A stretch of DNA of 35,308 bases. It comes from a virus. The DNA is taken from positions 1 to 35,308 of IMG/VR virus record IMGVR_UViG_3300042861_000443; one strand, 5' to 3'. Below, one piece after another: positions 17,826 through 18,839 of this stretch. The notes under the pieces were generated by a model. It was not told the DNA's origin. It did not search any database and saw only the letters and a list, made by a program, of their open reading frames with translations. Each line of letters begins with the position of its first letter. Position 1 is the first letter of the stretch. A program made the position numbers and the translations under genes.

Positions 17826-18083
17826 TTATTCTTCGGGGAATAATTTTGAGTAAAACTTTTTAAATTCTACATCTAAGTCAAAATCTATATTCTGTTTACC
17901 TTTAAATATTCCAGCTATAAAAAACTCTTTCATTTTTCGTTGCTCAAAAGTTAGTGTTTCGTCAAATATTTCATCAAGCGACTTGTCTTTATCAATATCG
18001 TTTTCTAACTCCTTTTCAAAGTTTTGCAACACCCATATCATCATGTGTTGTGTAGGTGTTTTTAATTCGTTATTTGTTTCCAT
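17826..18083 (-). CDS. Hypothetical acidic early protein (85 aa)
   Basis: Not recognised. It is strongly acidic and helical (NFEKELENDIDKDKSLDEIFDETLTFEQRKMKEFF), with no cysteine. It overlaps the upstream gene by 14 nt. Small acidic early phage proteins are often host-directed inhibitors, but nothing here shows a target. Confidence 0.6.
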   Translation of the reverse strand: METNNELKTPTQHMMIWVLQNFEKELENDIDKDKSLDEIFDETLTFEQRKMKEFFIAGIFKGKQNIDFDLDVEFKKFYSKLFPEE

Positions 18084-18345
18084 CTTTTATAAATTTAAGT
18101 TTGTTATCAATATCTTTTTCAATCCATCCAATTATCTTGTAATTTTCTTTCTCCCATTCTTTGCTCCAATGAGTACCCATTTGATTAATTGTAAATATTT
18201 GACCATTTGGGCTGTCAATTAGTAAGCCTCTTTTGGGGAATAAAAACTCCATTTCATACCCACTTGCAAAACTCATTATTGAAAACGTAGCATCATCAGG
18301 TGCATTTTCAATAAGTCTTTTTAATTCTTTAATTTTCATTGCCAT
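18070..18345 (-). CDS. Hypothetical early protein (91 aa)
   Basis: Not recognised. The N-terminus MKIKELKRLIENAPDDATFSI has the look of small Bacteroidota proteins that begin with 'KELKxLIxxxPDD'. An ATG two codons further in (18339) is an equally good start. The C-terminus KDIDNKLKFIKDGNK is basic and overlaps the next gene. It begins about 45 nt downstream of the attC-like region. Confidence 0.55.
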   Translation of the reverse strand: MAMKIKELKRLIENAPDDATFSIMSFASGYEMEFLFPKRGLLIDSPNGQIFTINQMGTHWSKEWEKENYKIIGWIEKDIDNKLKFIKDGNK

Positions 18346-18416
18346 CGCTTTTTTTCTTTTTGTTTTTCTGTTTAGTGTTCCAATTTGGCTTTATCGTAAA
18401 TAATTCGGCACTTCAT

Positions 18417-18495
18417 ATAACACGGGTTTGGCAAAATGGCTTTCCGACACACAAGCCAACGCTAAAAGCCACTTCGCCAAGCCCGAAACCGTTAT
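18417..18495 (-). repeat. attC-like 79-nt hairpin 3' of the zinc-ribbon gene
   Basis: Three nested stems are visible. ATAAC (18417-18421) pairs with GTTAT (18491-18495). CGGGTTTGGC (18423-18432) pairs with GCCAAGCCCG (18476-18485) with one mismatch. TGGCTTT (18437-18443) pairs with AAAGCCA (18465-18471). Spacers are unequal, leaving extra unpaired bases on one arm. Terminal AAC/GTT, total length and position a few bases after the stop codon all resemble an integron attC site. It is also clearly richer in G+C than its surroundings. Confidence 0.5.
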
Positions 18496-18498
18496 AAG

Positions 18499-18735
18499 TC
18501 ATTTTGCAATGTTTCCGCACTTATCACAAATTTGATGTTCAAAATCGGCTGTTACGGTTCTGCCAACTGCACCTCCTTTACATTTGCAAAACGAACTTAT
18601 AACAAGCGGTTGGCGCAATGCTGCGTACTCTTCCATTAATTCAGCAAGTTCGTTAACGTAGTATGTTTTACTACTATTAGTGTAACAAGTCGCTTTTGTT
18701 ATTCCTTTGTTTTTTAAAAATTCTATTGCTTGCAT
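18499..18735 (-). CDS. Cassette-like gene for a zinc-ribbon protein (78 aa)
   Basis: Not recognised by name. MQAIEFLKNKGITKATCYTN and YYVNELAELMEEYAALRQP are followed by a C-terminal SFCKCKGGAVG...HQICDKCGNIAK. The spacing C50-x-C52 then C70-xx-C73 suggests a zinc ribbon. I used the ATG at 18735. A TTG at 18774 would extend the frame into repeat sequence. The gene is flanked by direct repeats, has an attC-like hairpin right after its stop, and has a further inverted repeat running from upstream of the start into codons 40-46. It looks like an inserted cassette rather than a core phage gene. Confidence 0.6.
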   Translation of the reverse strand: MQAIEFLKNKGITKATCYTNSSKTYYVNELAELMEEYAALRQPLVISSFCKCKGGAVGRTVTADFEHQICDKCGNIAK

Positions 18736-18789
18736 TCTATTTAAGTTTATCGTTAATAATTCGCACTGCGCCAACCGCCAAAACGTTAT
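18599..18789. repeat. Second AAC/GTT-ended inverted repeat spanning the start of the cassette gene
   Basis: ATAAC (18599-18603) with GTTAT (18785-18789), and a perfect 12-bp pair GCGGTTGGCGCA (18606-18617) with TGCGCCAACCGC (18767-18778). The arms have the same layout as the hairpin at 18417-18495, but the loop is about 150 nt and contains the N-terminal coding part. Confidence 0.5.
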
Positions 18790-18839
18790 CAGATTGACTT
18801 ATCATACATTAAAGGCTATAATCATAGTTAATGAATGAT

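Follow-up and report, generated by a model that had tools for sequence, protein, structure and literature searches.

The block described here is very probably a pair of gene cassettes, part of an integron-like system of Bacteroidota phages, which is a phage-borne variant of the integron and not a classical one. It lies in what we call the window, i.e. the whole stretch of DNA analysed, which corresponds to the full length of one IMG/VR record (35,308 bases) and is possibly only a fragment of its phage. The assignment of the system to Bacteroidota hosts is based on named relatives (Flavobacterium, Polaribacter, Cellulophaga). Since the majority of the longer ORFs of the window are on the minus strand, the whole block is described in minus-strand orientation.

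In that orientation, a flank conserved in the lineage (18789-18839) stops exactly at the TAAC of the first cassette. This cassette opens with an attC-like site of 189 nt (18600-18788; box TAAC at 18785-18788, box GTTA at 18600-18603), whose loop holds a start codon and an N-terminal segment. Its ORF (18499-18735) comprises this loop-encoded segment (MQAIEF...), the 3' arm, read as ALRQPLVI, and a zinc-ribbon segment (CKC...CDKC), whose body unit spans GTTA to about the next TAAC (18498-18603). The second cassette has an attC-like site of 77 nt of the short-loop type (18418-18494), then a leader (18346-18417; box GTTA, then TATGAAGTGCCGA..AAAGAAAAAAAGCG) and a gene for a protein of 91 amino acids and unknown function (18070-18345), for which only weak PHROG matches were obtained, all of unknown function. 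A further TAACG is present at 18065-18083, only a few codons after the start of the following gene (METNNE...), and this gene recurs in two other loci (L339 and L340), behind other genes.

Folded as single-stranded DNA, the core of the 77-nt site, from TAAC to GTTA, reaches -20.7 kcal/mol, compared to -9.3 ± 2.1 for shuffled sequences (z -5.5, with 0 of 200 shuffles as good). The 189-nt site has inner arms of 16 nt that are 94% complementary (z -2.7, 1 of 200 shuffles as good); it starts ahead of the cassette 1 ORF and finishes within it, a layout matched in the loci L153 (202 nt) and L155 (185-199 nt). We also observe a direct repeat of 25 nt (84%; 18383-18407 and 18739-18763), and a G+C content of about 0.39-0.46 across most of the block, compared to 0.20-0.38 in its surroundings. 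A sequence-only reading had described an attC-like hairpin after the stop codon of a zinc-ribbon gene, a second inverted repeat beginning before this gene and ending inside it, direct repeats and a higher G+C content, and had inferred a single captured cassette of integron type. The hairpin is real, folding far better than shuffled sequence, and the second repeat, the direct repeats and the G+C content held as well. Nevertheless, the hairpin after the zinc-ribbon stop codon is part of the cassette of the next gene, and the second repeat is itself a full site, with the N-terminus of the protein encoded in its loop. As a cassette is a hairpin with the gene that follows it (see below), the block contains two of them. 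Searches of the window element against Rfam and for tRNAs gave nothing, and only chance matches were found in plasmids.

Comparison with other viral sequences shows that these sites form a family. The 18-nt word from the 3' arm of the 77-nt site is present in 100 viral-contig stretches and also in Flavobacterium muminviruses, adjoining methyltransferase genes. The common layout is TAAC, 5-6 nt, a stem of about 12 bp, a loop, the other strand of the stem, 1-2 nt and GTTA. Phage contigs contain hundreds of such hairpins, whereas control box pairs yield almost none: a box-and-stem scan with fixed thresholds, run on 1.43 Mb of fetched loci, returned 170 instances of the two-box geometry, compared to 0-3 for each of eight control box pairs. 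About half of the 170 hits came from loci selected by the 18-mer search, so that some loci were chosen by one arm sequence; the recombinase loci discussed below were fetched by protein alone. The spacer measures 5-6 nt at the 5' side of the gene and 1-2 nt at the 3' side, and this asymmetry gives the site a polarity. Two stem positions are consistently not Watson-Crick pairs (C.A at position 3 in many sites, G.T at position 12 in 77%), which recalls the strand-marking extrahelical bases of attC, although the phage sites show mismatches and not bulges. The outer bases of the box follow the consensus GTTA[TG]NNG, departing from GTTRRRY, while the AAC/GTT core was preset by the scan itself. The length of the terminal loop is very variable. 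A minimal site of 48 nt with the recurring loop TCGTTTTAATG is seen in many arrays (L022, L222-L224, L017 and others) and in Polaribacter phage P12002L (L104, 30008-30056).

The mobile cassette is shown by sequence comparison to be an attC-like hairpin followed by one gene. When the same gene follows the site and the upstream flank differs, the hairpin is common to 56 of 95 site pairs and unrelated in 31; when the same gene precedes the site and the following gene differs, the hairpin is common to only 1 of 46 pairs. Moreover, the loci L173 and L174 share four blocks, 98.8-100% identical but in a different order, each of which extends from one TAAC to the next. This linkage and these block boundaries define the mobile unit, and they overturned our first assumption, namely that the hairpin is the 3' end of the preceding cassette, as in the classical layout. 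The 31 pairs with the same gene and an unrelated hairpin indicate that exchange occurs at the 3' box too. Consistent with this, the leader GTTATATGAAGTGCCGAC... is found behind many hairpins of unrelated sequence and ahead of many different genes, and one methyltransferase start, GTTAGTGGCAGTACTTTTG, lies behind several unrelated hairpins. Exchange at the 3' box is not explained by simple one-box recombination and counts against the explanation we prefer. The movement, recent gain or loss and shuffling of cassettes are all inferred from sequence comparison, as no recombination was observed experimentally.

The same kind of exchange is seen at the site of the window itself. The gene upstream of the block is found at 89-100% identity in sixteen viral loci, and in 12 of these, 43-48 of the 50 nt preceding TAACG are identical to the window, whereas the figure for the 80 nt after TAACG is only 28-41. 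Eleven distinct first arms are thus found at the identical point, the one of the window and ten others among the 12 relatives, a comparison at the same site that the sequence-only reading had suggested. These swaps, together with the precise movement of blocks elsewhere, support its proposal of a captured mobile cassette. Its statement that no integrase gene is present also held: a PF00589 search for tyrosine recombinases gave no match in the window or in 11 related records, some of which are fragments; the search did give matches in each of two positive records and in 14 genomes that served as controls. It would therefore seem that the lineage of the window has an array but no enzyme of its own, with the caveat of the fragmentary records, and this lack counts against the explanation we prefer. 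No attI-like site was recognised in the window; within the conserved flank (18789-18839), TAACTATGATTATAG is similar to the attI-like TAACTATTATATG but is located at the opposite end of the array.

The hairpins also take part in the coding sequence. Among sites of 101-140 nt, a loop ATG opening a frame of at least 40 codons past the box is found in 182 of 302, compared to 6 on the reverse strand, and the genes starting in this way fall into 155 groups. In each of 9 comparisons between different hairpins that precede one gene, the frame is preserved. Most hairpins of this size thus hold the start codon of the gene in their loop, with a frame that runs through the 3' arm; the compatibility of the frames is shown by comparison, translation has not been shown experimentally. 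These data bear on the possibility that the hairpins are mobile elements of the MITE or REP type between genes, or transcription terminators, without any cassette function. Indeed, one hairpin type adjoins many different genes, and hairpins follow stop codons. Nevertheless, hairpin and gene move as one, the in-frame loop start codons far exceed those of the reverse-strand control, and a bare element would leave its neighbours unchanged, whereas at the site of the window the following sequence changes too. This possibility is all but ruled out.

In the case of the window, an entire N-terminal segment, MQAIEFLKNKGITKATCYTNSSKTYYVNELAELMEEYA, is encoded by the loop; conceptual translation of the 3' arm gives ALRQPL, and the GTT of the box is the valine that opens the zinc-ribbon part. 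The zinc-ribbon unit recurs in L153, where the DNA is closely similar from GTTATAAGTTCG to TGACTTATAACGGT and unrelated on both outer sides: a different hairpin with a different N-terminal segment precedes it and a different hairpin follows it. The exact zinc-ribbon DNA was not found in viral contigs; a protein search with the zinc ribbon recovered L153-L156, and this protein has no Pfam or PHROG match. A bolder reading, which in our view is as likely to prove wrong as right, is that these phages have a specific class of integron in which the recombination site doubles as a translated joint, with a start codon and N-terminal segment in the loop and a coding 3' arm. Besides the movement of whole genes, exchange at the 3' box would then pair N-terminal and C-terminal modules anew and in frame, giving chimeric proteins in a manner similar to exon shuffling. 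If true, this would be a new way of making proteins by recombination.

Five Xer/IntI-like tyrosine recombinases were found in phage records of the hairpin family and served as queries that retrieved 80 viral loci and 80 genome loci. Hairpins lie nearby in 56 of the 80 viral loci; the other 24, and most genome loci, have no detectable array, which counts against the explanation we prefer. Comparison of these 56 loci shows a clear association with the recombinase: 213 hairpins on its strand lie upstream of it and 1 lies downstream, the opposite strand having 4, although similar amounts of sequence were scanned on each side (228 and 246 kb). Directly before the recombinase gene the arrays stop at an attI-like site that is conserved, TAACTAYTATATG, and in each phage a different cassette end adjoins this site, TAACTAYTATATGTA. 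The attI-like motif precedes 41 of 65 viral recombinase genes, compared to 20 of 1300 background windows. Furthermore, in eight contigs with an identical recombinase (900/900 nt) the arrays differ, and the differing arrays diverge at, or no more than 2 bases from, the attI-like TAAC. The catalytic residues R, K, H, R, H, Y are invariant in the five recombinases, which are about 265-310 amino acids long. Their TIGR02249 scores are 145-168 bits, below the cut-off of 265, with matches split around the insertion, and alignment with IntI1 shows that the IntI-specific insertion is absent; the relationships of these enzymes rest on such HMM scores and on this alignment. One viral contig of 169 kb (L165, IMGVR_UViG_3300043411_001575) carries many sites in several stretches together with a recombinase, and may represent either a phage of large size or a piece of bacterial DNA.

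An alternative is that these are ordinary cassettes of bacterial integrons, class 1 or sedentary chromosomal, picked up by phages and moved by the IntI of the host. In its favor, the AAC/GTT core and the hairpin logic are the same, and IntI1 recombined one attC of P12002L with attI1 (PMC9892861); this phage has short hairpins of the present layout beside methyltransferase genes, but their link to the site tested with IntI1 is unconfirmed. Against it, the arrays adjoin phage-encoded recombinases without the IntI insertion, a scan of the genome_contigs collection with one common 3'-arm pattern gave no match, and the boxes (GTTA[TG]NNG, not GTTRRRY), the asymmetric spacers and the reversed gene polarity differ. 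Moreover, few hairpins are found near the bacterial and archaeal relatives of the recombinase: the 80 genome loci show a weak form of the same polarity (16 hairpins upstream, 0 downstream, 3 on the opposite strand; control boxes 0-2, 1-2 and 0-5, respectively), and the attI-like motif is found in 1 of 72. We consider this alternative very improbable. Among these relatives (L245-L324), several are from Pacearchaeota, and some have one or two sites upstream (L268, L297, L300, L323).

Precise exchange is also seen in cultured phages, the Polaribacter phages Freya_1 to Freya_10, which were obtained on one host strain, range from 44.0 to 48.9 kb, and were described without the words integron or cassette (PMC8776804). 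We compared five isolates, Freya_10 (L335), Freya_8 (L336), Freya_5 (L337), Freya_2 (L338) and Freya_1 (L334). Relative to Freya_10, the blocks missing upstream of the integrase amount to 902 bp in Freya_8, 3198 in Freya_5, 4100 in Freya_2 and 4942 in Freya_1, and Freya_1 lacks 842 bp relative to Freya_2. Every junction has AAC, which is joined to AACACCCCTATAAC just before the integrase in Freya_1, _2, _5 and _10, and a matching hairpin is present at 2 of the 3 cassette starts inspected. From this comparison we infer precise excisions from AAC to AAC beside the integrase. As cultured isolates of a single phage, they provide a natural gradation in the size of the cassette array. A similar site precedes the integrases of Leef_1 and Ingeline_1, without clear arrays.

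These junctions speak to a further alternative, namely that conserved hairpins recombine by homology, or that replication switches template between them, with no site-specific recombinase involved. In its favor, the arms within one type show conservation across 18-20 nt, hairpins are able to promote a switch of strands, and exchange between gene and hairpin occurs at the 3' box too. Nevertheless, most Freya junctions have just AAC or CAAC in common (one pair has 11 nt), exchanges occur between hairpins unrelated in sequence, and the positional link to the recombinase and the attI-like site is strong. This alternative therefore also appears highly unlikely.

The preferred explanation remains a cassette system of the phages themselves. 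Its mechanism is inferred: the phage-encoded recombinase, beside the attI-like site in relatives, would most likely be the catalyst, acting on the hairpin folded as single-stranded DNA, cutting at the AAC/GTT box and moving cassettes between arrays and into attI. As the window phage has no detectable tyrosine recombinase, it would need one in trans, and this phage and its close relatives probably receive cassettes from co-infecting or resident phages.

Such a system shares with integrons a tyrosine recombinase beside an attI-like site, an array of small co-oriented cassettes, hairpins that resemble attC in their AAC/GTT boxes, conserved stem mismatches and variable loops, an inferred crossover at the box, and a cargo of methyltransferases, acetyltransferases and small unknown proteins. 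It differs in the lack of the IntI-specific insertion in its recombinase of about 265-310 residues, in cassette genes that point toward attI, whereas classical ones are transcribed away from intI, in a hairpin at the 5' end of the gene, often giving the start codon, whereas classical attC is at the 3' end, in its boxes (GTTA[TG]NNG, against RYYYAAC and GTTRRRY) and spacers (5-6 and 1-2 nt), and in being phage-borne. Taken strictly, an integron has an attI beside the integrase where cassettes join, which relatives show, and precise gain, loss and shuffling of cassettes, which comparison shows for Freya, for L173 and L174, and for the window site in 12 relatives. The IntI-specific domain, which is the defining feature of IntI and the basis of detection by IntegronFinder (PMC9668308), is absent, and the blocks are hairpin-first from TAAC to TAAC, with genes toward attI; the system thus works like an integron yet fails two strict tests, and the integron origin proposed by the sequence-only reading is not shown in the strict sense. 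The window fits the definition of a CALIN, an attC array of at least two sites without integrase, in having no PF00589 match and two attC-like sites, whose attC status rests on likeness.

Sites of attC type and CALINs have already been reported in phages, with 17 CALINs and few integrases (PMC9892861). Our sites share with them the location around methyltransferase genes, P12002L included. They differ in their number, which runs into the hundreds, and in being accompanied by a dedicated family of phage recombinases, an attI-like site, defined boundaries of the cassettes and loops that are coding. Searches with class 1 attC boxes yielded just a few sites, largely very alike, a set too small to test a canonical attC model fairly. 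In the reverse-oriented integrons of Spirochaetota (mentioned in PMC9668308), recombinase and cassettes also run in the same direction. In those integrons it is intI that is turned round, attC staying at the 3' end of the gene; in the phages it is the cassette genes that are inverted, attI keeping its classical position at the 5' end of the recombinase. Archaeal integrons similarly lie outside the classical bacterial range, but their IntIs reportedly retain the IntI-specific domain, unlike the phage recombinase (PMC9668308). Short ORFs inside attC aid the translation of the next cassette (reviewed in PMC8876359), whereas the phage loop start codon is fused to the gene of the cassette itself. 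We found no description of the present system in the literature searched, which did not cover preprints and most subscription journals.

Integrons have so far been known chiefly as bacterial platforms, and a separate version owned by phages and common in Bacteroidota viruses would escape tools keyed to the IntI-specific domain. It could account for the fast replacement of small accessory genes (methyltransferases, Mom, Lar-like anti-restriction proteins and many unknowns), which may let phages answer host defences, and the cultured Freya phages permit it to be tested directly. Few of 128 cassette proteins match Pfam, with 17 families hit, which include DNA methyltransferases, Mom, MT-A70, GNAT and a Lar-type restriction alleviation protein, and the PADLOC matches are foremost to methyltransferases. 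The remaining cargo consists of small unknown proteins, both genes of the window among them.
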